Below are positions 7,318-19,797 of a stretch of DNA of 19,989 bases, one piece after another; within the stretch, counting starts at the first letter, position 1; every line of letters begins with the position of its first letter. Made by a program: the position numbers and the translations under genes. Source of the stretch: Nostoc sp. GT001 (GTDB lineage Bacteria > Cyanobacteriota > Cyanobacteriia > Cyanobacteriales > Nostocaceae); contig NZ_JAUDRJ010000003.1 of assembly GCF_030382115.1 (NCBI RefSeq), positions 4,975,376-4,995,364 on the forward strand, in the 5' to 3' direction. A model generated the notes under the pieces. The model searched no databases, was not told the DNA's origin, and was given only the letters and a program-made list of their open reading frames with translations.

Positions 7318-8871
7318 TTAATCATCTTCTAATTTCAGTAATTGTTCATCGAGAATTTGTATCCGTCCGCGCACAATTTCTTCTGAAAGAATTCGCTTCC
7401 GCATTGCCTCATTGAGCGCTCCTTTTTCTGCCAGCAGTAAACGTCGGCGAATAGCCTCAAGTTTACTGCTCTTGCCACTTCTAGCTTCCACCTCATCAGG
7501 GCGACGATTATATAATTCCCGCAGTGTCTTTTCTGCACTCGCAATTCGTACCTGATAAGCTGAACGCATCTCTTCATAAACGGCTTTTGGTAATACCCCT
7601 GATTTTAACAGGCTATCTAATTCATCTTGTGCCGCCTTACCCGTCATCAACTGGGCTTGCAACTCTTCAACCTGTTGTTGAACTTCAGAAAATTTAGATA
7701 ACTTTAAGCGTTTTACCACCCAAGGCAAACTTAAACCCTGTCCCACTAACGAAACCAGCACACAGCCGAAGACTATAGCGATCAGGACTTCTCGCCCTGG
7801 TAATGTAGTGGGTAAACTCAATGCCAGAGCCATTGAGAGTGAACCTTTGATGTTGCCTAAAAACAGTAAATGTTGCCAGCGCAGCGGAATTGGGCGGTCA
7901 ATCCAACGAACTACTGCTAGCAGTGGATACACCGTAAGAACTCGCCCGATTTGATAAGCCAAAACTGCAAGTAGAATTGCAGGTAAAGTTTTCCAGAGCG
8001 TTACCAAATTTATTTCTACACCAATCAACAGAAAAATAAAGGTGTTGACAGTAAAACTGGCATATTCCCAGAAACTCAACAAGGTAATGCGGCTAGAGGC
8101 AGAAGTATTGCGAGAAAGCCCAAAATTCCCAAAAATTAATCCAGCGACAACTACGGCCACAGGACCTGATACACCGAGAAATTGCCCAACCTGAAAAGTT
8201 CCTAATGCAACTGCGACTGTCAGCAAAAGACTGCTAAGAGCATCATCTAAACGGGCGAATACAGGTATACTCAAGTAGCCCAAGACCAACCCCACAACGC
8301 AGCCTCCTAGAGAGATAAATAGCAGTTGTTGGATTCCCTCTATAAATGTGAGTGAGCCTGTTGAATATACTTGCACAATCAAGTTGAAGGAAACTAGGGC
8401 AGCGGCATCATTGAATAGGGTTTCCCCTTCAACGATGGTGGAAAGCCGCGAGGGTACTGGTATATCCTTAAATACAGCAATCATGGAAACAGTATCAGTG
8501 TTTGCCAGAATTACTCCGACAAATAACGCAGGTATCCAACTCAGTCCCAGCCCAAATTTCAACAGGAGGGCAATAATCGCACTGGAAATCACAGCCCCTG
8601 GCCCAGCTAGTAGGGCAATTGGTTTAAAGGTGCTGCGTAGGCGGCTAACATCTGTATTAATACCAGCTTCAAAGATGAGAATTGGCAAGAAAAGATTTAA
8701 AACAAGGGTTGGATTTAAACCAATCCGACGAGACAATAACTCAGTGATGGGCAAACCTGCTAATACTAAACCCGTAACATAAGGGATTCCCAACCGTCGG
8801 GATAGCAAAGCTACTCCTGTGGCAAGCAGCAAGAGGATAATTGAAACTTTGACTAATTCAGTAACATCCAC
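7318..8871 (-). CDS. CPA1-family Na+/H+ antiporter (NhaP type)
   Basis: The product has 517 residues. Residues about 5-395 form roughly a dozen membrane segments. The CPA1 ion-binding signature GETLFND is at 149-155, with Asn154-Asp155 as the expected transport pair, and ANTDTVS at 123-129 corresponds to the conserved ATDPV-type helix break. From about residue 400 on it is soluble, charged and helical, a probable cytoplasmic regulatory coiled coil. It would exchange Na+ (or K+) for H+ across the plasma or thylakoid membrane. The GTG start is the only initiation codon between the upstream in-frame stop and MDVTEL. It follows the DUF389 gene by 63 bp on the same strand, so they probably share a transcript. 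It is only distantly similar to the second antiporter here, so it is not a recent duplicate. Confidence 0.9.
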   Translation of the reverse strand: MDVTELVKVSIILLLLATGVALLSRRLGIPYVTGLVLAGLPITELLSRRIGLNPTLVLNLFLPILIFEAGINTDVSRLRSTFKPIALLAGPGAVISSAIIALLLKFGLGLSWIPALFVGVILANTDTVSMIAVFKDIPVPSRLSTIVEGETLFNDAAALVSFNLIVQVYSTGSLTFIEGIQQLLFISLGGCVVGLVLGYLSIPVFARLDDALSSLLLTVAVALGTFQVGQFLGVSGPVAVVVAGLIFGNFGLSRNTSASSRITLLSFWEYASFTVNTFIFLLIGVEINLVTLWKTLPAILLAVLAYQIGRVLTVYPLLAVVRWIDRPIPLRWQHLLFLGNIKGSLSMALALSLPTTLPGREVLIAIVFGCVLVSLVGQGLSLPWVVKRLKLSKFSEVQQQVEELQAQLMTGKAAQDELDSLLKSGVLPKAVYEEMRSAYQVRIASAEKTLRELYNRRPDEVEARSGKSSKLEAIRRRLLLAEKGALNEAMRKRILSEEIVRGRIQILDEQLLKLEDD

Positions 8872-8934: not shown

Positions 8935-9936
8935 TCAGGGTGTGGTTTCAGAACTTCTAATTTCCTCCACTTGACCAACTTCAAAAATTAGGGTGAATGG
9001 TTGCCCCATCTCTCGTTTGATAAATGCTTCTAATAATTCTACTTGCCGAGGTGTGACAGGTTCTCTTGCTCGGACGCTCAAACGCACTTCTGGGGGATTT
9101 GTCAACCAATTGGTATTACTGTTAAGCAACTGCAAGCGGCCAAAGGTGACAGTTCGATTCAATAATGCCCGTCGTAAGCTGGTTTCTAGTTGTGCTTGTC
9201 GTACAAGTCGGGCAAAGCTGACTCCCAAGGGAATTAGTAGAATAGCTGTCAAAGCCATAGTCCAAATTAGGGGTTGACGGGCCCGCGCCATTGAAGTGTA
9301 ACCTGCTACTAAGAATGTCACCATACAGGAGAGGGCAATACCTAATAAGTTGGTGAGATAAAGTAGAGTTGCCCCCAAACTGAGTGACCAATTTCCTTGT
9401 GCCAAGCCTAAACCAATGACACAAATGGGGGGCATGAGGGCAACAGCGATCGCAGTTCCTGCTAAACTAGTAGATATTTTCGTTTCAATTTTCGCGTAGC
9501 CACTAATACCACCAGCTGCTACAGCAATTCCCAAATCTAACAATGTTGGTCTAGATCGAGCCAGTACTTCGCCACCATAACTCGGCAATCCCACCAGCAA
9601 GCCCAGAGTAAAAGCGATCGCTACCGCTAACATAGTGCCTACTGCTACAGCAATTATCCCCTTGCGAAACAAAGTAATATCTGCTTGCAAAGCACCAAAA
9701 GCTAACCCACGAATCGGCAACATCAGGGGGGCAATAATCATTGCACCGATAATCACGGCCGCACTGTTGGATAATAAACCCAAAGTTGCGATCGCACAAG
9801 AGCTAATAATTAAAATTATGTAAGCTGAATCTAGAGTCGATTCAGCCAGCAAGTCGGTTTGTAGCTGTTGTAGTTGTTCCGGCTGCGAACCCCGGCGGCG
9901 GAAATTTTTAAACCGGTCTCGAATGTTATTACCCAA
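8935..9936 (-). CDS. DUF389 (TIGR00341-type) integral membrane protein
   Basis: The product has 333 residues. Residues about 35-240 contain several membrane helices with the hallmarks of the DUF389 family: STLDSAYIILIISSCAIATLGL, SAAVIIGAMIIAPLM, and the later ALMPPICVIGLGLAQGN. The C-terminal about 90 residues form a small soluble alpha/beta domain (VRLSVRAREPVTPRQVELLEAFI...). The family has no settled biochemical role. The TTG start is supported by GGAGG about 7 bases upstream. It is the first gene of a minus-strand pair with the antiporter, which suggests a link to ion or envelope stress, and it is divergent from the second antiporter. Three HIP1 sites lie inside the gene. Confidence 0.85.
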   Translation of the reverse strand: MGNNIRDRFKNFRRRGSQPEQLQQLQTDLLAESTLDSAYIILIISSCAIATLGLLSNSAAVIIGAMIIAPLMLPIRGLAFGALQADITLFRKGIIAVAVGTMLAVAIAFTLGLLVGLPSYGGEVLARSRPTLLDLGIAVAAGGISGYAKIETKISTSLAGTAIAVALMPPICVIGLGLAQGNWSLSLGATLLYLTNLLGIALSCMVTFLVAGYTSMARARQPLIWTMALTAILLIPLGVSFARLVRQAQLETSLRRALLNRTVTFGRLQLLNSNTNWLTNPPEVRLSVRAREPVTPRQVELLEAFIKREMGQPFTLIFEVGQVEEIRSSETTP

Positions 9937-10087: not shown

Positions 10088-11680
10088 ATGCAAAATTATA
10101 CCAGGAATTTACTTATGGTACTTGAATCAGCGATCGCCGAGGAAGTCATTACAAATAATCTCAAGCAATTTCTGTTGGTACTTTCGGTGTCTCTAGGCGT
10201 GGCGACACTACCGCAGATATTTAGCTGGTTTCGCAATATACCTTACACCTTACTATTGGTGATTGTCGGGTTAGGTTTGGCCTTTGTCGATGTCCGTTTA
10301 GTAACCCTTTCCCCCGAATTAATTTTGTTCATTTTCTTACCACCGCTACTATTTGAAGCCGCATGGAATTTGAAATGGGCGGAACTGAAGCGAGATTTAG
10401 TGCCAATTTGCCTGTATGCAGTGTTCGGGGTGTTAATTGCGATCGCCGGGGTAGCGATCGCTCTCAATCAACTCGTTGGTATTTCCCTAACTACAGCTTT
10501 ACTCATTGCAGCCAGTCTATCTGCAACTGACCCTGTTTCTGTCACCGCTTTGTTTCGCCAACTCGGCGTAGGTAGTCGTCTTACCACCTTAATGGAAGGC
10601 GAAAGCTTGTTTAATGATGGTATGGCTGTAGTTGCCTTTGGTTTTTTGGTAGCCTTATCTTTGGGAACTGTAGAATTGGAATTCCAGCCAATTTTATTAC
10701 AGTTATTTACAGTTGTTGGCATTGGTATAGGGGTGGGAGCTTTTATCGGATTTGGTATTTCCTACCTTACCCAGCGTTTCGATTTGCCTTTAGTGGAACA
10801 ATCCTTAACTTTAGTTTCCGCCTACGGCACTTACCTAATTGTCGAAGACTTAGGCGGTTCTGGAGTAATTGGAGTTGTCACCACAGGTTTGATTTTAGGC
10901 AACTTTGGCTCTCGTATCGGCATGAATCCCCGCACCCGGATTATTGTCTCCGAGTTTTGGGAATTTCTGGCATTCTTTGTTAATTCAATTGTCTTTCTGC
11001 TAATTGGCGACCAAATACGCTTTGCTAGTTTAGGCGAAAACCTGCAAATCATAATGGTGACAGTCGCAGCAATGATTGTAATGCGGGCAGTTGGTATTTA
11101 CATTCTCAGCAAATTGAGTACTAGCATCACCAAATCGGACATTTCTTTACCAGAACAAACTATCCTCTGGTGGGGTGGGTTACGCGGTTCCGTCTCCATT
11201 GCCCTGGCATTGAGTGTATCGACGACACTGCCAGAGCGAGAAAAAATCATTGCAACAGTATTTGGAGTAGTTTTATTTACTCTGCTTGTTCAGGGATTGA
11301 CCATCAAACCTTTGCTGGAAAAACTCAATTTGCTTGGTGATGCACCCTTGCGCGAGCAATATTTAGAATTCGTTGCCCGTCATGTTGCCTTAGAACGCGT
11401 TTTAGAACACCTCCAGGCAGATCAACGCCCCGGTATTGACCCAGAATTTCGCCGTTATCAAGAGACACTAATCAAAGGTGAACTTGTAGATCTACGGATG
11501 GAAATTGACAAATTACAGGGTGAATATCCGAATCTTCAGAGCTTTACAACAGAACAATTTCGAGGAGAACTGTTGGCAATTGAGGCAGATACTTATGCAG
11601 AATTTGTCAAATCTGGTCGGTTAAATAAAGAATTAGCATCTATGCTTGAGGATGTTTTGCAAGATAATAAATCTCAATAA
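10088..11680 (+). CDS. CPA1-family Na+/H+ antiporter (second copy)
   Basis: The product has 530 residues. Residues about 25-425 carry the multi-helix antiporter core, with ATDPV at 146-150 and the signature GESLFNDGMAVVAF starting at 171; Asn176-Asp177 is the expected ion-binding pair. The C-terminal about 105 residues are charged and helical and probably cytoplasmic. The conserved motifs match the NhaP/NHE branch more closely than those of the minus-strand antiporter do. The ATG at 10088 has no visible Shine-Dalgarno site and sits beside a strong inverted repeat; ATG 10115 is a possible alternative start. Transcription runs into the bidirectional terminator at 11734-11776. Three HIP1 sites lie in its first 400 bp. 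Confidence 0.9.
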   Translation: MQNYTRNLLMVLESAIAEEVITNNLKQFLLVLSVSLGVATLPQIFSWFRNIPYTLLLVIVGLGLAFVDVRLVTLSPELILFIFLPPLLFEAAWNLKWAELKRDLVPICLYAVFGVLIAIAGVAIALNQLVGISLTTALLIAASLSATDPVSVTALFRQLGVGSRLTTLMEGESLFNDGMAVVAFGFLVALSLGTVELEFQPILLQLFTVVGIGIGVGAFIGFGISYLTQRFDLPLVEQSLTLVSAYGTYLIVEDLGGSGVIGVVTTGLILGNFGSRIGMNPRTRIIVSEFWEFLAFFVNSIVFLLIGDQIRFASLGENLQIIMVTVAAMIVMRAVGIYILSKLSTSITKSDISLPEQTILWWGGLRGSVSIALALSVSTTLPEREKIIATVFGVVLFTLLVQGLTIKPLLEKLNLLGDAPLREQYLEFVARHVALERVLEHLQADQRPGIDPEFRRYQETLIKGELVDLRMEIDKLQGEYPNLQSFTTEQFRGELLAIEADTYAEFVKSGRLNKELASMLEDVLQDNKSQ

Positions 11681-11787: not shown

Positions 11788-12840
11788 TTACTCGAACCCG
11801 GTAACTCCCGGAATTTCAAGGACAAAATCTGCCCCATATACAGATGCAGGAGTCTGGAATCCTACCTTAACTTCGCCTTGAATCACCCGTTTGCTCACTG
11901 CTACAGCCGCTAATGCCGTAAAATCGTATGCTTCCGGTCCTAAGAGCTTTGCAGTTACTTGTTGACCAGTTTCATCCTCAGCAATACCAATTACTCGAAC
12001 TTGCCCCTTGGCTCGTTCTGCCGCCGTTAGCCCAGTGGGTAGAGTTTTAATTAGACTTGCTAAAGCACTTTGGAATAAAGACGAGTTAAATAACCATCCC
12101 AAATACTGGCTCAACTCCATCAGGAAGCGCACAGGATTAGGGAATACGGTATAAACCTCAATATTGGGAATACCCGTAGTTTGGAACGCAGTGATAATAT
12201 CAGCACGCCAAGGGTTTGTTACCGCTGTCACCGGGCCATAACCAAAATCAACCTTACGTCTTTTCGATGCTGGAGCAGATGGGATGAGCTTACCTGCTTC
12301 TCGAACTACCCCGATATGATGTAAAGTTGGCAGTACTGTATTTGCAGTTCCCTGAGATACACCGCCTACTGTTTCATAGATTAAAATCAGTCGCGTTGCA
12401 GCTGCTAACTTCTGTTTGAGGTAAGCAGCTACACAATCAGTAGGGACAACTCCAAATCCCACACCAGGGAGAAGCATTATCCCTGCACTTTTAGCCTCAG
12501 CATCTCGTGCTTGTAGCGCCTGAAATTCAGGTACTTCGCCAGCTATGTCTAAATAGTGAGTTTTAGTTTGGAGGCAAGCATCGACAAGTGGCTTTGAGGT
12601 TTTGGAGAAAGGCCCAGAGCAGTTGATGACAGCAATTATATCCTCAAGAGAGCGAGCGAGCGATCGCGGCTCATTTAAGCCAAAAACCCGAAAGTCCAAA
12701 CTTAATTCATTGGCTACAGCTGCTAGTGAATTTTGATTGCGTCCAGCTAAAATTAATTCCAGTCCGTTATTTTTAGCAGATTCAGCAATGAGTTTTCCAG
12801 CATAGCCAGTTGCACCATACAATAACACCCTTGATGTCAT
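11788..12840 (-). CDS. saccharopine dehydrogenase-like NAD(P)-dependent oxidoreductase
   Basis: The product has 350 residues. The Rossmann dinucleotide-binding motif GATGYAGK is at residues 9-16, followed by LILAGRN at the cofactor 2'-phosphate position (the Arg suggests NADPH) and VINCSGPF and DIAGE motifs typical of the saccharopine dehydrogenase NADP-binding family. This family also includes the mycobacterial trans-acting enoyl reductases of lipid synthesis. True lysine-pathway activity is unlikely here: the protein is short and sits in a lipid-oxidation gene set. A role reducing an oxidised lipid intermediate is an inference. It is the last gene of the minus-strand cluster, 13 bp after the ABM-fold gene, with GGTGAT as a plausible ribosome-binding site. 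It holds the last HIP1 site (12660) before the HIP1-free right end. Confidence 0.82.
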   Translation of the reverse strand: MTSRVLLYGATGYAGKLIAESAKNNGLELILAGRNQNSLAAVANELSLDFRVFGLNEPRSLARSLEDIIAVINCSGPFSKTSKPLVDACLQTKTHYLDIAGEVPEFQALQARDAEAKSAGIMLLPGVGFGVVPTDCVAAYLKQKLAAATRLILIYETVGGVSQGTANTVLPTLHHIGVVREAGKLIPSAPASKRRKVDFGYGPVTAVTNPWRADIITAFQTTGIPNIEVYTVFPNPVRFLMELSQYLGWLFNSSLFQSALASLIKTLPTGLTAAERAKGQVRVIGIAEDETGQQVTAKLLGPEAYDFTALAAVAVSKRVIQGEVKVGFQTPASVYGADFVLEIPGVTGFE

Positions 12841-12853
12841 TAATTATCACCAG

Positions 12854-13162
12854 CTAGGAGTTGTTCGCAATCTGCTGCCATAACCTGACTTCAGGTGGTT
12901 CAACTAAAAATTGTCCTGATTTTTCCCCTAAAGCTTTAATATACGGCTGCTCTAAGTGTTGAGCCAAAATTTCTTGGCTGACCCAGTTTTCATGTAACAG
13001 AAACAAAGATGGGTCATCAACAGATTGGTGCAAATCGTAATTAATACAACCTTCTTCTGCAAGAGTGAGAGCTATTACAGGTTGAAATTCCTGCTTAAAA
13101 TTGTCTTCCAAACCTGGCTTTACTTTTAGTCGAGCGGTGACAGTTACTTTCTGATTTGACAT
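12854..13162 (-). CDS. antibiotic biosynthesis monooxygenase (ABM/YgiN)-fold protein
   Basis: The product has 102 residues, the normal length for a single ABM domain. The ferredoxin-like pattern is clear: VTVTARLKVKPG for strand 1, EEGCINYDLHQSVDDPSLFLLHENW as the core signature, and SQEILAQHLEQPYIKAL for the final helix. Members act as cofactor-free monooxygenases on quinols or polyketides, or as heme-degrading enzymes, and are usually dimeric and cytoplasmic. Here it lies 29 bp after the lipoxygenase stop and 13 bp before the next gene, so it could handle a reactive lipid or quinone product of the pathway. The ATG start has GAGG 7 bases upstream. Confidence 0.85.
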   Translation of the reverse strand: MSNQKVTVTARLKVKPGLEDNFKQEFQPVIALTLAEEGCINYDLHQSVDDPSLFLLHENWVSQEILAQHLEQPYIKALGEKSGQFLVEPPEVRLWQQIANNS

Positions 13163-13191
13163 TGTGGTTCCTCTTTTTTACTAAAACTAAT

Positions 13192-14832
13192 TCAAGTATT
13201 AATGCTGTTAATAATTTCCGAAGGCTTGAAGTAGTTATAAGGTATGGGACGAGTCTGATTTCTAATGTCTATTTGCCGTTCTATTTCATGTAAATTCTGT
13301 TGAAATTGCACCACAATTTCCTGCGCCAATGGGTCGGCAAACTCCTCATCATAAAAACCCAATTTATCATAGTGGTACGATGTTAAAATCTCAGTCCACA
13401 TCACCTGGTCGGCAGCTTGTTTAAAGGGAGGAAGTATCTTCATAATAGTTTCCAAGTCTACACCCTTAGTTTCTGGAATTGGGTGGTAGGCTGCATAGGG
13501 CATATTGGGTACAAAGGCCATATATTCGTACTGAGAAAAATTTAAAGCAGAGTGTAGAGGAGCGCAAGTGAATACTACCACACTGATGATTTCAATCAGT
13601 TGTTCTAGAGTCTCAATCTTGGCTGGCATTCCCTTGACTCTACCACCATCTTGAGCCACTAATTCTCTAGCCCAATTTTGCAACTCATAGTCATCAATGA
13701 TATCTTGTGAGGTTTTGTAATAGAGTTGCAAGTATTCAGCCACAAACTTTTCGACAGCATTCCAAATTAATATGCCATCGTCCCGGAAAGGAAAGTGCGG
13801 TAAAATTTCTGGGTCATCCGTTCGCCGACTTTTTATTAACCGAGGGAAAGTAAACTTTTCCACACTCCATTCTTCATAAACCTTCGCCACAAACCCAAGA
13901 GACTCCGCCAATGAACCTGCCATAAACTCATCAACCGGGCCTCCAGGTTGTAAAAACTGAGTGCGCCCCAAATCGTTATCAAATAGCATAAAACGGAAGT
14001 GGGGTTTTAACAGTAAAGCGATGGGATGATTTTCTGCTAGTTGCCGCGCAGTGACAATTGCAAACGGAGCCATAACTGCATGGGTATAGGCGAAATGACT
14101 ACCCAATTCTTGATGGTTGCCATCAGCAATTTGAACGCAGGTTTTTGCCAAAAACCAATCTAAATGGGGGTCATCTGGTGTATAAATTACGCTTTTTGCA
14201 CCAGAATCATGATTAATCTGGATGGCAACAGGTACTAGAGAACCACCATTAGGACTATCATTACTTTGCCAATAAAATAGAGCTTGTGGCTTGGGAAGGT
14301 ACTTTTTAACATTCTCATAGACACCACCTTTAATATCAGATAACAAAGGATAATCTAAGAAATACAGCTTGCCTTCCTTAAGTGCCTTTTCCAAAGTAAG
14401 TTCTGTACCTGCTACCTTCTGAAAATGGGAATCAGTTACAGCAAAACTATCAGGTAATACATCAATTTTTTGGATAGCTAATGGGTTCGCTCCAGAGAGT
14501 CGTTGTTCCGCAAAACAAGAGTCTGTTTTGTAATTTTTTATGACATCGGGTTTTTGTAGTAGTGACAAAAGTTCTTCATATTCTTCCAATTCATCTAATG
14601 GGTCTAAGAAATTTCTGGCTTTGGCAGCTAGCATATTTGGTACAAGACTTGCCATACTTGCCAAACGTTTAGCAGTATATTCCGCCGAGAATATTTCTTT
14701 ATGAGGAACTTTATCAATGACTGGTAGAGGAGCTAGATAATCGTAATTAAATTTGTACTCTTCTCGATTTTTATCTAGCCAATTGATTCGGACATTAACA
14801 TCAGGATCTTTTTGTGGTAAATATGGTTTCAC
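13192..14832 (-). CDS. lipoxygenase
   Basis: This non-heme iron dioxygenase family inserts O2 into polyunsaturated fatty acids. With GTG 14832 as start the product is 546 residues, the catalytic domain alone without the PLAT/beta-barrel domain of plant and animal enzymes. GTG 14832 is chosen because GGAG lies 6 bases upstream; the TTG at 14844 would overlap that site. Iron ligands are visible: His246 and His251 (SHFAYTHAVMAPF), His427 and Asn431 (LHSALNFSQY). The RLSGANP motif near residue 112 is the usual substrate-channel landmark. The C-terminal residue, normally Ile donating its carboxylate to iron, is Thr (INSINT). There is no signal peptide, so it is cytoplasmic or peripheral. It sits between the di-heme cytochrome genes and the ABM gene. 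Regiospecificity cannot be read from sequence. Confidence 0.93.
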   Translation of the reverse strand: MKPYLPQKDPDVNVRINWLDKNREEYKFNYDYLAPLPVIDKVPHKEIFSAEYTAKRLASMASLVPNMLAAKARNFLDPLDELEEYEELLSLLQKPDVIKNYKTDSCFAEQRLSGANPLAIQKIDVLPDSFAVTDSHFQKVAGTELTLEKALKEGKLYFLDYPLLSDIKGGVYENVKKYLPKPQALFYWQSNDSPNGGSLVPVAIQINHDSGAKSVIYTPDDPHLDWFLAKTCVQIADGNHQELGSHFAYTHAVMAPFAIVTARQLAENHPIALLLKPHFRFMLFDNDLGRTQFLQPGGPVDEFMAGSLAESLGFVAKVYEEWSVEKFTFPRLIKSRRTDDPEILPHFPFRDDGILIWNAVEKFVAEYLQLYYKTSQDIIDDYELQNWARELVAQDGGRVKGMPAKIETLEQLIEIISVVVFTCAPLHSALNFSQYEYMAFVPNMPYAAYHPIPETKGVDLETIMKILPPFKQAADQVMWTEILTSYHYDKLGFYDEEFADPLAQEIVVQFQQNLHEIERQIDIRNQTRPIPYNYFKPSEIINSINT

Positions 14833-14924
14833 GATTATCTCCAATTCGGGTTTTTAGCGTTTGGTAGTAAATGATTAACGTCAAAAAGTTACTAAATTAC
14901 GTCAGGATATAGCAACAACTTGAA

Positions 14925-15674
14925 TTACAGAGTTTTCAGATACTCAATCAGAGCTTTTTTCTTTTCATCAGATAAATCAGTGCCATAAATATGTCCCTGA
15001 TTTGAATTAGCAGTTACCGTCGTATCGTATTTAAAACCTATAGCTTTGGCTTCATCTCCCTCAGTAATAAAGCCGACTTTTTTCGGATCGTAGACATCAT
15101 ATCCCCGATAAAAAACTTGAGGACGATTCTCTGGTTTCTCGAACAAATCTTGTAGAGATGGAACTGAACCATTATGTAAATATGGCGCTCTTAACCATAA
15201 TCCATCTAGAGAAACAGATACATACCCATTAGTTTTACGTAAGTTCTTAAAGTCCCAAGGGTAGCCATCACCAAAATGATTGTAAGTATCCGCTCCTTCT
15301 TGCGTCCACATATCTAACCGATGGCGGTCAGTTCCCACTTCTTCCACAGGGATAACAGTACCCGTTCTTTCACCACCAAAAGCGTGGCAAGATGCACAAG
15401 TATTAGCAAAAATTTGACTTCCTTTTGCAGCCACTTGCTCATCAATCGCAAATGGATATTTAGGAGGTGGTAGTTCTTGAATAAAATCTTCTACTCGTTG
15501 TAAATCTGCTACAGGAAGTGATTTTTTGGTTGCACCGTCACCAATTGCTCCAGTTTGAACAGTTTCTGTTAGTGAAGTTTCTAACCCATCCCAATGAAGT
15601 GCAAACCCTTTGTGCATCTTTTGATTCCAAAGAGACATCATATCAGAGTTGCCAATAGTGTTATCTTTGGGCAA
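14925..15674 (-). CDS. C-terminal fragment of the frameshifted di-heme cytochrome
   Basis: This is the open frame downstream of the frameshift. It starts with a TTG that has no ribosome-binding site and is an internal Leu in the paralogue, so independent translation is doubtful. It carries heme site CASCHAFGG, the ELPPPKYPF linker, the EEVGTDRHRLDMW segment and the conserved LHNGSVPSLQDLFEKPENRP region. The fragment has 249 residues and its end matches the end of the intact paralogue. The last residues lie 92 bp before the lipoxygenase start. Confidence 0.6.
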   Translation of the reverse strand: MPKDNTIGNSDMMSLWNQKMHKGFALHWDGLETSLTETVQTGAIGDGATKKSLPVADLQRVEDFIQELPPPKYPFAIDEQVAAKGSQIFANTCASCHAFGGERTGTVIPVEEVGTDRHRLDMWTQEGADTYNHFGDGYPWDFKNLRKTNGYVSVSLDGLWLRAPYLHNGSVPSLQDLFEKPENRPQVFYRGYDVYDPKKVGFITEGDEAKAIGFKYDTTVTANSNQGHIYGTDLSDEKKKALIEYLKTL

Positions 15675-15676
15675 CT

Positions 15677-16357
15677 TTAAAGTATTGAATTTAACTGGAT
15701 TAAAAGGGTCAATTCGACCAGGCCCCAGTTAGGACGAGAATCTGTCCAACTATAGTCTTCTTTTTGTTGCAGCAGTGCTTTCTTAGTTTGAGGAATTAGC
15801 ACATAGCGATAAAGTAAATTTTCTAACCATGAAAGGTTGTAATTATATTTGATTTCGTCAAGGATATAATCTGCTGTAAATCTGGCATCACCAGCAGTTG
15901 AACTCAAAAATCGTAAATAGCCTTGCGAATCAAACTTATTAGCAGGAGCAGCAGCTACAATTGTGGGTTTATCTTTCTCTGTTTTTCTATAGGTAGCAGT
16001 ATGGCAAACAGCGCAAGTTATACCGACACGAGGGAAGCCAATAGTTTTTTTCGTAAACCCAACTGGCATTTCTTTACCCTCTTCCCATGTGATTCCCAAG
16101 GAAGTATAACCACCTGGCCCTGGTAATTTATCAGGGAATATTCTTGGTAGTACCAGCCAAATCCAATAGGGAACACCTTGCGCTTCTTCTGTGCCAATAG
16201 AACCATATTTAAAGTGTTCTTCAGGCGATTCATAATATGTGGGAACCTCTCGAAAAAGGTTGTACCATCCCACATACCCAACTACACCAGCTAAAAGGAT
16301 CACAATTAAAACAATGCTTGTGATTACCCTACCTATTTTATTTTTGAGTATTGTCAT
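15677..16357 (-). CDS. N-terminal fragment of the frameshifted di-heme cytochrome
   Basis: This is the open frame upstream of the frameshift. It encodes a membrane anchor, the FKYGSIGTEEAQGVPYWIW segment shared with the paralogue, heme site CAVCH and the region up to SRPNWG. It then leaves the homologous frame and ends after 14 unrelated residues. It would lack the second heme and is unlikely to be active alone. It follows the small membrane-protein gene by about 90 bp. Confidence 0.6.
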   Translation of the reverse strand: MTILKNKIGRVITSIVLIVILLAGVVGYVGWYNLFREVPTYYESPEEHFKYGSIGTEEAQGVPYWIWLVLPRIFPDKLPGPGGYTSLGITWEEGKEMPVGFTKKTIGFPRVGITCAVCHTATYRKTEKDKPTIVAAAPANKFDSQGYLRFLSSTAGDARFTADYILDEIKYNYNLSWLENLLYRYVLIPQTKKALLQQKEDYSWTDSRPNWGLVELTLLIQLNSIL

Positions 16358-16446
16358 GGCACTCTTTTGCTCCTTTGCAGAAGAATCTGTTTGTAGTGCA
16401 GGCAATATACCTACACTAGACTAGGGATAAAATTAGAAGAATTGCT

Positions 16447-16857
16447 TCACTGGAATTGCAGCGATTGCATTTTGCTACGCATCGCTAAGGTCAGAAGAAT
16501 TAGTTCCGCTAATCCAAAAAACAGGTCTACAAAGGCAATGGATAAAAATCCTTTATCTTGTCCAAAGAAAAGTACTGCACAAATGAAAAATGTTGATCCA
16601 AAAGCTCTTGAAGGAAATATTGATATCCAGGCAGTTGCCTGATATCGATACGGGTCAAGTGCCCCAGGAATATAAAATGCACTAATAATAAACAACAGCA
16701 TTCCCGCAGCACGAACCCAGATAATTGGCTCTGGTATATGCATTTTAAGGAACGTCAACATTAGTTCTGGAAAGAAGCAAGAGGGAATGACAAAAAGCAT
16801 ATTAACAATAATGCCAACCCAAGTAACGCGACTAAACCATTTAGCGTAATTATTCAT
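16447..16857 (-). CDS. four-helix integral membrane protein of unknown function
   Basis: The product has 136 residues and I do not recognise a named family with certainty. Hydrophobic segments are visible at about 10-28, 44-62, 84-99 and 103-125, joined by short loops, with basic residues near both ends (MNNYAKWFSR and AMRSKMQ), suggesting a four-helix bundle. No Cys pairs or heme motifs are present. The gene sits between the two di-heme cytochrome genes. It begins 12 bp after the intact one, whose stop codon (TAAAAGGAT) abuts its own AAGGAT ribosome-binding site, so translation is probably coupled. That suggests a membrane partner, perhaps anchoring the cytochromes or passing electrons or lipid to them, but no function can be assigned. 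Confidence 0.75.
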   Translation of the reverse strand: MNNYAKWFSRVTWVGIIVNMLFVIPSCFFPELMLTFLKMHIPEPIIWVRAAGMLLFIISAFYIPGALDPYRYQATAWISIFPSRAFGSTFFICAVLFFGQDKGFLSIAFVDLFFGLAELILLTLAMRSKMQSLQFQ

Positions 16858-16869
16858 TTTTTTATCCTT

Positions 16870-18336
16870 TTAAAGCTTTTTCATGTACTCAACTAGTGCA
16901 TCTTTATCTTCTGTAGGAAGATCGGTTCCATATAAATGACCACTGTTACTATTTCCAGGTTTTGTGGTATCGAACTTAAAGTATTGCTTACCGTTTTCTA
17001 CACCGACATCAGATACAAAACCAACTTTTGCTCTGTCAATCACATCGTAGCCACGATAGAATTCTTTAGGTCTATTTTCTGGTGTTTCTAGTAAATCCCG
17101 TAAGGTGGGGACTGAGCCATTGTGCAAATAAGGGCCACGTAACCAAACACCATCAAGGGGCATATTTGCATAGCCATTAGTCTTGCGGAAATTCTTAAAG
17201 CGCCACGGATACCCTGTATACAGAGTATTTTGGTTAGACATCGTTTTGTAGGTATATGAGTCGAGACGATGAGGGTCTGTACCAATTTCTTGAATTGGGA
17301 CAACTTTGCCTGTATATGCACCACCAAAAGCGTGACAACTAGCACAATTGCTTTCAAAAAGCTGTTCTCCCTTCGCTGCTATAGTTTCGTTAACTTCGTA
17401 GGGATATTTTGGTGGTGGTAGTTCCCAAAGCCAATCAGCAACTCTTTGAATTCGAGGTAAATCGATTGTTGTGGGTGTGACTCCAGCGCCTAAAGCTGCA
17501 CTCTTATTTCGTTCATCAACAGAAGTATTATTACCATCCCAATGTAACTGCAATCCCTCACGGGGCTTTTGATTCCAAACTGAAGGGAAATCAGAAGTCC
17601 CAATCAGTTCATCCTCACGCAATTTATCCATTGGGAAATGAAATTGAATTGCTTTATAAGGATTAAAAGTATCTACTCTTCCTGGCCCCCAATCTGGTTG
17701 TTTTTCAACGAAATTAAGTCGAGATGCCTGATTAATTAGTGCATCTCTAGTTTGAGGAATTGCAATGAAGCGATAAAGTAATTTTTCAATGGGATTAAGA
17801 CCACCACTGATTTTTTCAATTTCTGGCAACATTCGGTTAGCAGTAAAGCGCTCATCTACACCAACTGCTGATAAGAATTTGATATATCCCTGCAAATTAA
17901 CTACATTAGCAGGCATTGTTGTGATGACTTGATGTTCACTATTAGGGGTATTTCGCAGCGTTCCTGTATGACATACAGCACAATTCAACCCAACTCTATC
18001 GATAAAGATTCTTCGTTGCGAAAAACCTATAGGCAAATCTTTATCAGGTTCTTTGATAAATCCCAAAGAAGTATAACCTTTTCCAGGTAATTTATCTGAG
18101 AATAATTCTGGTAAAACTTTCCAAATCCAGTAAGGGATGCCATTGATGGGTTCGCTGCCGATTGAACCATATTTAAAGTGGTTTTCAATATCAGCATAAT
18201 CCACTGGGGAGTTGGACAAAACAGGCCACAGGAAAAATACTGCTACTGCTACAATACCTACAATCACAACCCAAATCCGTTTAAAGAGTCCCTTGATTGA
18301 GGTTGGAAGTAGAGTAGGGTTTGTTTGTTCAGTCAT
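16870..18336 (-). CDS. membrane-anchored di-heme c-type cytochrome, RoxA/MauG-like (possible lipid dioxygenase or diol synthase)
   Basis: The product has 488 residues. One hydrophobic segment at 20-40 is probably an uncleaved anchor, with the rest in the periplasm or thylakoid lumen. Covalent heme sites are CAVCH at 119-123 and CASCH at 331-335. The C-terminal motif GVWLRGPYLHNGSVPTLRDLL (from 396) is characteristic of bacterial di-heme peroxidase/MauG/RoxA proteins. The spacing of about 210 residues between hemes, long N-terminal part and the GIPYWIW segment (66-72) look closer to RoxA rubber oxygenase-type and Pseudomonas 10S-dioxygenase/diol synthase-type proteins than to classical cytochrome c peroxidase. 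This placement is from memory. The ATG has GGGGAG 6 bases upstream. It is the second gene of the cluster, 66 bp after the ene-reductase gene, and a paralogue of the frameshifted gene downstream. Confidence 0.85.
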   Translation of the reverse strand: MTEQTNPTLLPTSIKGLFKRIWVVIVGIVAVAVFFLWPVLSNSPVDYADIENHFKYGSIGSEPINGIPYWIWKVLPELFSDKLPGKGYTSLGFIKEPDKDLPIGFSQRRIFIDRVGLNCAVCHTGTLRNTPNSEHQVITTMPANVVNLQGYIKFLSAVGVDERFTANRMLPEIEKISGGLNPIEKLLYRFIAIPQTRDALINQASRLNFVEKQPDWGPGRVDTFNPYKAIQFHFPMDKLREDELIGTSDFPSVWNQKPREGLQLHWDGNNTSVDERNKSAALGAGVTPTTIDLPRIQRVADWLWELPPPKYPYEVNETIAAKGEQLFESNCASCHAFGGAYTGKVVPIQEIGTDPHRLDSYTYKTMSNQNTLYTGYPWRFKNFRKTNGYANMPLDGVWLRGPYLHNGSVPTLRDLLETPENRPKEFYRGYDVIDRAKVGFVSDVGVENGKQYFKFDTTKPGNSNSGHLYGTDLPTEDKDALVEYMKKL

Positions 18337-18402
18337 GAAACACTCCCCATTTTGTCGAGATTATTTATAAGCGAAATTGTCGATGTGATCCGCATCGCTT
18401 TT

Positions 18403-19797
18403 TTATCTAGATAAATTTGCAAACTGAGTTTCATGAAAGACTGACATTACTTCTTCCATCATCTCTTCATAGCTATTGAAGCGATCCTGCTCGTAACAAC
18501 CCAAGGGATTTTCAATTACATTCAGCAGACATTTATTGCAATAAGTACAGGGTTTATCTGCCAGGTCTTTACCTGCTTGAAAAGATTTAACTAGGTCATT
18601 ATTAGCAATTAAGGTACGAGCCATTGTGACGCCATCACAATACTGATCATTAATTGCCTGACGAATATAAGAAGCTTGCTGTAAACCACCTGTACATAAT
18701 ACAGGAATATTAACGTGCTTTTTAATTTCTCTGGAATCTAGTAAGTTTCTGCCTTGGTTCTCTATTAGTAGCTGTTTAATTTTCGGGTCTTTTACATCAT
18801 CACCGCTAAATGCTTGAGGAGGCAATTGCTTTTTCACACGATTCCATAAAAAATTGAAAAGTGGATGAAAAAATGCTTTGCGAAATAAAATGTAGTTGCG
18901 TGTGGTTTCGACACCACTTGACAACATGGCATCATAAGTTCTAGTAATTACATCAAAATTAAAATCACCAATGGGATTGAGCGGGTGAGGAAATAAGCTA
19001 CCAGTTGACACATGGACCGCATCAGCCCCAGCTTCTTCTGCCCATTGACAAACTTGGATAGAATCTTCTATGGTATTACCTGGTTTTTCCCAAAAGGTGA
19101 CGGCGTTGTTATAGTCAACGGCACTAATTTTGAATTGCAGATGAAAGTCGTTGCCTACTTCTTTGCGGATTGCTCTAATTACATCTAGCAAAAACCGCGC
19201 TCGATTCTCTAATGAACCACCATATTCATCTTGACGGTCGTTAATTCCAGAACTGAGAAATTGATTAAAAAGATATCCATTAGCACTGTGCAATTCTACT
19301 CCATCCAAACCTGCTTCACGGGCACGTCTAGCACCATCGGCGAAGTATTGGATTGTTTCTTTAATCTCTGTTAGTGTCATCGCTTGACACAAAAAGCCGT
19401 GGAATGGCTCAGTTTGGCTAGTGGAACTTAAGGCTTTTTTTCCTAAGTTTTCTACACCACCAATATCTTGCTGTCGCCCTGAATGACTTAATTGCAAAAT
19501 AAATTTACAGTCATATTCGTGGACTCTTTCTCCTACTTTTCGCCAAAAGGGAATGCGCTCATCACAGTTAATGGTGGCGTAATTGGGCATAATTCTTCCC
19601 CGGATGGCGACTGGAACAAAGGAACTAATAATCGCTCCTACACCACCACGAGCAAACTTTTCTTCCCAGTTGATTCGGGCTTGAGTTCCTGAACCATCAT
19701 AGTTATCCCATCTTCCAGAAATACTTGAGCGAAATATCCGATTTTTTACTGTGAGATTACGGAATCTCAATGGTTCAAAGATAATATCGTTTTCCAT
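18403..19797 (-). CDS. Old Yellow Enzyme-family NADH:flavin oxidoreductase with C-terminal cysteine cluster
   Basis: The product has 464 residues and an FMN-binding TIM-barrel fold. FEPLRFRNLTVKNRI opens the barrel. ILQLSHSGRQ (100-109) and GVELHSANGYLFNQFLS (166-182) contain the substrate-binding pair His170/Asn173 and the proton donor Tyr175, the same arrangement as yeast OYE1. EYGGSLENRARF follows. A region at about 285-355 with hydrophobic FRKAFFHPLFNFLW has no place in the standard barrel. Near the end CTYC-NK-C-(10)-C (417-434) resembles the 4Fe-4S site of 2,4-dienoyl-CoA reductase but with shorter spacing. The C-terminal FAD/NAD domains of that family are absent. ATG 19797 was chosen over TTG 19830. 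First gene of the cluster; likely reduces an activated double bond of an oxidised lipid. Confidence 0.9.
   Translation of the reverse strand: MENDIIFEPLRFRNLTVKNRIFRSSISGRWDNYDGSGTQARINWEEKFARGGVGAIISSFVPVAIRGRIMPNYATINCDERIPFWRKVGERVHEYDCKFILQLSHSGRQQDIGGVENLGKKALSSTSQTEPFHGFLCQAMTLTEIKETIQYFADGARRAREAGLDGVELHSANGYLFNQFLSSGINDRQDEYGGSLENRARFLLDVIRAIRKEVGNDFHLQFKISAVDYNNAVTFWEKPGNTIEDSIQVCQWAEEAGADAVHVSTGSLFPHPLNPIGDFNFDVITRTYDAMLSSGVETTRNYILFRKAFFHPLFNFLWNRVKKQLPPQAFSGDDVKDPKIKQLLIENQGRNLLDSREIKKHVNIPVLCTGGLQQASYIRQAINDQYCDGVTMARTLIANNDLVKSFQAGKDLADKPCTYCNKCLLNVIENPLGCYEQDRFNSYEEMMEEVMSVFHETQFANLSR

Follow-up and report, generated by a model that had tools for sequence, protein, structure and literature searches.

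The physiological roles of bacterial lipoxygenases (LOX) and of RoxA-like di-heme proteins are, to our knowledge, mostly unknown, and Nostoc is known for a tandem of a cyclooxygenase (COX)-like 10S-dioxygenase with a catalase-related lyase. Among the closest described systems, the PA2078-PA2077 operon of Pseudomonas aeruginosa is an oleate-diol synthase operon of FadCcp di-heme proteins, in which one protein carries out hydroperoxide formation and its partner makes the diol (PMC4496055). CspLOX2, a cyanobacterial mini-LOX of solved structure (PDB 5MED), has 11R-hydroperoxyoctadecadienoic acid (11R-HPODE) as its main product and gives more 9R-HPODE when Ala300 is changed to Gly (PMC5437038). 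The latex oxygenase RoxA and the fatty-acid alpha-dioxygenases of plants and cyanobacteria are the other two points of comparison. The window analysed here is a stretch of 19,989 nucleotides (G000:C3:4975376-4995364) from a Nostoc-type genome of 7.9 Mb, in which seven genes, all on the minus strand (19797 to 11788), encode an Old yellow enzyme (OYE)-family flavin reductase, two di-heme proteins (A and B) with a predicted four-helix membrane protein between them, a LOX, an ABM-domain protein and a saccharopine-dehydrogenase-like protein. The island to which they belong probably encodes, on balance, a pathway of lipid oxygenation that leads to an oxylipin; any particular product is much less certain. 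Every family of the island except the four-helix protein is already known. What is newly described here is the five-gene core (OYE, the RoxA-like pair and the four-helix protein, joined by DH3, the third di-heme protein), together with the oxygenase partners that replace one another beside it and an exchange site: in agreement with the initial annotation, which knew of no pathway with this gene set, no description of the set, the core, the partners or the site was found in the papers searched (subscription papers were largely outside the search).

The seven genes are separated by gaps of 66, 12, 89, 92, 29 and 13 bp, and the run ends at an intrinsic terminator hairpin with a T tract (11781-11729, minus strand; -27.6 kcal/mol, z -5.7, with none of 200 shuffles equally stable). 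Coordinates and folding thus agree with the short-gapped run and strong terminator first proposed for this DNA. The hairpin was not listed by a consensus terminator scan, probably because the loop limit of that scan is 8. The run is real but incomplete as a gene set, since three divergent genes continue outside the window: those for DH3, a lipase-like alpha/beta hydrolase and a short-chain dehydrogenase/reductase (SDR), followed by radC. On its other side lies a cation/proton antiporter gene (10088..11680, plus strand; PF00999), which forms the border of the island and stands outside the pathway. The resulting ten genes span 13.6 kb (C3:4987053-5000647 of the same genome) and are taken as one island because the antiporter gene adjoins radC directly in three other Nostoc genomes, with 129 bp (G552), 29 bp (G539) and 23 bp (G527) between the frames.

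In 15 of 53 Nostoc genomes a single contig carries the antiporter gene and radC no more than 18 kb apart; in some of the others they are on separate contigs or distant from each other. Between them we found the LOX-bearing island in G000 (the window's genome), G531 and G521, and a di-heme island without LOX in G517, G530 and G553; the antiporter gene is broken in G553, the only one of these three with a GMC oxidoreductase. Four further genomes (G526, G528, G414 and G533), which are all of the four fetched with an antiporter-radC gap of about 8 kb, carry an alternative set of four genes, whose products are an alpha-dioxygenase-like haem peroxidase, an unassigned 303-aa protein, and members of the GMC oxidoreductase and patatin families. 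Pfam and PDB searches of this set were run on the G526 copy, whose animal-type haem peroxidase has a plant fatty-acid alpha-dioxygenase as its best solved relative (416 bits). No alpha-dioxygenase was found in the window's own genome at E <= 1e-40. The presence of an unrelated fatty-acid oxygenase set at the same site is our strongest evidence for a role in lipid oxygenation.

The gene set is kept as a unit beyond this genome, and its core recurs on Rhizobium plasmids and in other cyanobacteria, which answers the co-occurrence check that the initial annotation had proposed. The co-occurrence is not accidental: among 11 public-genome relatives, 9 have all seven genes in the same order, and the contigs of L006 and L011 break off before the set is complete. 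Full-length di-heme A occurs in 23 of the 53 Nostoc genomes, exactly those that also have DH3, which the remaining 30 lack; a truncated match to di-heme A (G558) and a distant one (G539) fall outside the 23. The island-type LOX is found in 13 of these core genomes, each time beside di-heme B, with the cluster of G518 spread over several contigs. Fourteen other Nostoc genomes have a LOX 52-55% identical to it and no full-length di-heme A. In the ten cores that lack LOX, di-heme A adjoins B, next to the pair comes a protein related to the four-helix one (426 aa or shorter), and seven of them also have a GMC oxidoreductase, whose gene is split in two in one case; among the three without it, locus L154 stops at a contig end.

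Outside Nostoc, the plasmid regions examined were seven among 65 records with a di-heme match and two among seven records with a LOX match. On pRL11 of Rhizobium johnstonii the OYE gene is followed by those for di-heme A, the four-helix protein, di-heme B, a 929-aa protein and a GMC oxidoreductase, with a gene annotated as patatin last; the 929-aa protein is a DH3 relative (28.7% over 849 columns, E 1e-93). The same order recurs in Rhizobium sp. WYJ-E13, Sinorhizobium sp. B11 and S. fredii CCBAU 45436, in B11 without an adjacent patatin gene. Elsewhere the core is accompanied by changing partners. It stands opposite genes for an SDR, a cytochrome P450 and an alpha-dioxygenase in the Moorena-like genomes G084 and G160, and opposite an alpha-dioxygenase in G054, and in Qingshengfaniella an alpha-dioxygenase homologue occupies the divergent position beside it. 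The core is found opposite DH3 in G121, G027, G120, G135 and G187, the last four with patatin-like proteins alongside, beside DH3 and GMC in G096, and beside GMC in G024 and G018. In G186, a member of another family, the core is accompanied by LOX, DH3 and patatin. In G018 a single 628-aa frame (L140:8795-10681) encodes both the four-helix protein and di-heme A, which suggests that the two proteins touch. That frame adjoins a 1149-aa fusion of GMC plus alpha/beta-hydrolase.

We also counted the genes in an order sample of 195 genomes, in which Fisher tests treat genomes as unrelated, so that all p values given here ignore relatedness. Di-heme A was present in 17 genomes and DH3 in 11, with both in 9 (p 1e-9). 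An alpha-dioxygenase occurred in 14 genomes, of which 4 had di-heme A (p 0.02), and a LOX of any kind in 48, of which 9 had di-heme A (p 0.008). DH3 and alpha-dioxygenase were found together in none of the 195 genomes at the thresholds used, and among the 17 genomes with di-heme A, DH3 (9) and alpha-dioxygenase (4) were mutually exclusive (p 0.03).

Di-heme protein A (16870..18336, minus strand; 488 aa) matches the RoxA-like domain PF21419 and NF040606, a family named di-heme cytochrome c peroxidase (192 bits, cut-off 150). It has the motifs CAVCH, CASCH and PYLHNGSVP and one predicted N-terminal membrane helix ahead of the c-type di-heme domain. Di-heme protein B (16357-14925) is divided by a frameshift into an N-terminal part with the first heme motif, CAVCH (15677..16357, minus strand), and a C-terminal part with CASCH and PYLHNGSVP (14925..15674, minus strand; PF21419, and 162 bits against the same NF040606 cut-off). 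The cause is a one-base deletion relative to all seven aligned relatives, in which the frame is uninterrupted; either a true mutation or a fault of the assembly may be behind it. Other Nostoc genomes have the gene intact, and among the 23 with full-length di-heme A only this one has a stop-interrupted match to B, the gene in G518 being divided between contigs. DH3 (669 aa; motifs CAICH and CASCH) is encoded just beyond the window on the opposite strand, some 0.7 kb upstream of OYE. All three proteins have an N-terminal hydrophobic stretch, which together with the haem motifs suggests export to the periplasm. In G550 the DH3 gene lies in two overlapping pieces (G550:C127:43568-45579), another broken member of a cluster.

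Proteins A and B resemble PA2078-PA2077 in that a single operon, here a putative one, encodes a pair of related di-heme proteins, each with two CXXCH motifs and the PY[FL]HNGSVP motif that mark FadCcp proteins (PMC4496055). The comparison is one of motifs, lengths and operon architecture. The Pseudomonas parallel drawn in the initial annotation stands at this level of architecture, but island protein A, with its predicted membrane anchor, is shorter (488 aa vs 634 and 624 aa for PA2077 and PA2078), and its haem motifs are 212 residues apart vs 245 in PA2077. Unlike the Pseudomonas pair, the pair of the island is accompanied by OYE, the four-helix protein and DH3 as well as by partners that can be exchanged. 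The fold nearest to that of di-heme A is RoxA, and the two have the PF21419 domain in common; however, the di-heme proteins reach at most 75.5 bits against the RoxA, RoxB and RoxC families, whose cut-offs are 900-1000, and di-heme A is also shorter than RoxA, has a predicted anchor, is paired and stands among lipid genes.

The LOX (13192..14832, minus strand; 546 aa, GTG start) is a mini-LOX without a PLAT domain and scores 212 bits against PF00305 (curated cut-off 23.6). The iron ligands read from the sequence at the outset are all present, as three His and one Asn (H246, H251, H427 and N431). CspLOX2 (5med/5mef) is the closest solved structure (437 bits), of the same length class and with the same iron site, and the nearest relatives are Nostoc or Nostocales records, with a clade support of 100/100. 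The active site is unusual: Gly289 at the Coffa site, Asp285 and Phe293 stand in the places of Ala300, Ile296 and Leu304 of CspLOX2, and the Coffa-site Gly predicts R products. In place of the C-terminal iron-binding Ile, the protein ends in Thr546, as do the enzymes of all 15 operon-type loci. Among fifteen non-operon LOX loci, taken from the 48 LOX-bearing genomes of the order sample, the last residue is Ile in 12, Met in two and Leu in one; departures from Ile exist there too. Since the C-terminal iron ligand of LOX is a carboxylate, Thr546 is compatible with activity. Two other LOX-like genes are present in the same genome, one about 94 kb away and split into two frames (C3:4893121-4894783, L076) and one with an open frame of 633 aa (C3:3551305).

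The OYE-family reductase (18403..19797, minus strand; 464 aa) matches PF00724 with 219 bits and has the active-site pair H170/N173, in line with the OYE active site that had been noticed in the sequence. It also has a conserved C-x2-C-x2-C-x10-C cluster, likely an Fe-S site. The His and the four Cys are kept in 19 of 19 aligned rows, with Asn or His as the second residue of the pair, and the best PDB relatives are an NADPH dehydrogenase and a 2,4-dienoyl-CoA reductase. The 136-aa protein (16447..16857, minus strand) has no Pfam match over the cut-off and no PHROGs family. Its predicted structure, with a predicted local distance difference test (pLDDT) score of 92, consists of four long helices and has no PDB fold match at E <= 0.001. 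A DoxX label was considered for it and rejected, as there is no DoxX Pfam match at E <= 0.1. The ABM protein (12854..13162, minus strand; 102 aa) bears the signature reported earlier (PF03992, 65.5 bits, cut-off 23.1), and the last gene of the run (11788..12840, minus strand) codes for the 350-aa saccharopine-dehydrogenase-like NAD(P) protein (PF03435, 47.2 bits), which has no PDB sequence relative at E <= 0.001. Profile matches thus agree with the family names originally given to OYE, di-heme A, LOX and ABM; di-heme B carries its name as a gene split by a frameshift.

The make-up and limits of the island, its conservation and its replacement at the site by other cassettes can be read from the genomes compared; the order of steps and the product set out here are guesses. 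Lipase or patatin genes and alpha-dioxygenases beside the same core, and an alpha-dioxygenase set at the same site, point to a theme of lipid oxygenation. From what is known of the families, the lipase-like protein would release acyl chains, into which O2 would be inserted by secreted DH3 and, in the LOX-bearing version, by an R-type lipoxygenase; elsewhere an alpha-dioxygenase would take the place of both in this step. The membrane-anchored proteins A and B, with the four-helix protein, may then oxygenate the chain or convert the (hydro)peroxide at the outer face of the membrane, perhaps like the Pseudomonas pair, with the hydroperoxide formed by one and the diol by the other. Carbonyl products could be reduced or rearranged in the cytoplasm by the OYE, SDR, ABM and saccharopine-dehydrogenase-like proteins, and the outcome would be a strain-specific oxylipin.

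Several observations weigh against such a pathway. One of its di-heme genes is frameshifted in the window's own genome. Ten of the 23 Nostoc cores have no LOX in the cluster, so that the core is not simply downstream of the island LOX, and in G483 only the last 61 residues of LOX are left beside full-length OYE, DH3 and both di-heme genes, from which this cluster appears to have lost its LOX. The core itself varies: searches of G120, G135, G187 and G018 gave no di-heme B, and a four-helix protein was not found in G054, G031 and G101 (the last two near contig ends). In the order sample, 4 of the 17 core genomes lack DH3 as well as alpha-dioxygenase. The GMC and patatin families are both broad, and in G187 and G120, the two tested, the patatin-like matches fall below the Pfam cut-off. 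Products would need to cross the membrane, because c-type haem domains should be periplasmic and no N-terminal hydrophobic signal was seen in LOX and OYE.

The same genes could also serve to clean up lipid peroxides, the di-heme proteins acting as peroxidases that reduce lipid hydroperoxides with membrane electrons, OYE removing reactive enals and LOX having a minor or regulatory part. That the di-heme proteins exceed the cut-off of a family named for a cytochrome c peroxidase, that OYE enzymes reduce enals, and that catalase-annotated genes (with Pfam scores below cut-off) lie beside more distant di-heme relatives all speak for this explanation, which we nevertheless consider unlikely. An oxidative attack on another hydrophobic substrate (a polyisoprenoid, carotenoid, sterol or hopanoid), comparable to that of RoxA on rubber, is quite improbable: the closest fold is RoxA, RoxA-type profiles are among the matches, and GMC oxidases act on many alcohols including sterols, but the distance of the di-heme proteins from the RoxA cut-offs is large and the partners LOX, alpha-dioxygenase and patatin indicate acyl chains.

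The jasmonate-like route suggested by the initial annotation, in which a 13-LOX product would pass through an allene oxide to a cyclopentenone reduced by OYE, takes its appeal from the sharing of one putative operon by LOX and OYE. Allene oxide synthase comes in two kinds, P450 and catalase-like, and neither was recognised in the island: none of its ten proteins matches PF00067 or PF00199 (the search covered the island and not the rest of the genome). OYE accompanies the core also in clusters without LOX. The Coffa-site Gly moreover predicts R products, whereas the plant route uses a 13S-hydroperoxide (PMC5437038). We regard this route as very improbable. The broader claim of a lipid-oxidation operon fares better, with a conserved unit and lipase, patatin and alpha-dioxygenase partners in its favour, once the jasmonate-like product is set aside.

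Returning to the lipid-oxygenation pathway, we are led to a more far-reaching idea, offered tentatively and with rather less than even confidence. The antiporter/radC site may swap whole oxylipin pathways (di-heme/LOX, di-heme/GMC, alpha-dioxygenase/GMC/patatin, or none), as strains swap surface-antigen loci, so that relatives would make different oxidised-lipid signals or toxins. The core of OYE, RoxA-like pair, four-helix protein and DH3 would then represent a membrane lipid-oxygenase complex of a new kind, present in root-nodule bacteria as well. If true, bacterial lipoxygenases and RoxA-like di-heme proteins would gain a defined pathway context. With three lipid-oxygenase sets, or an empty site, at the same place in related strains, Nostoc would offer a natural experiment, and the purpose of bacterial oxylipins would become testable by strain comparison and deletion of a single island.

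Further observations concern the surroundings of these loci. Beside the island, the window carries a second antiporter gene (7318-8871, PF00999) and a gene at 8935-9936 whose orthologue (L157:3735-4766) matches DUF389; of the 22 Nostoc loci L146-L167, 15 have at least one of these two gene types. At the antiporter/radC site G537 and G547 have 2 to 3 kb of unassigned sequence (L164:2545-4170 and L166), one of them with a 542-aa protein of no Pfam family. At the G483 locus (L101, 6734-8973) the place of LOX is taken by its remnant, an incomplete reductase gene and a gene for a 360-aa protein of no family, and the four-helix gene lies in two frames. On the symbiotic plasmid pNGR234a of NGR234 (L142, 8016-14936), a di-heme fragment, a catalase-annotated gene, an unassigned gene, a di-heme gene and a patatin-like gene stand in a row. 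On pYEE4 of Paracoccus yeei (L143, 6026-10502), a RoxA-like di-heme gene is followed by a small catalase-annotated gene and one for a cyclooxygenase-like haem peroxidase (207 bits to COX-2). The catalase-annotated genes of both plasmids and the pNGR234a patatin score below the Pfam cut-off; the pYEE4 row is possibly an oxylipin set of another kind.

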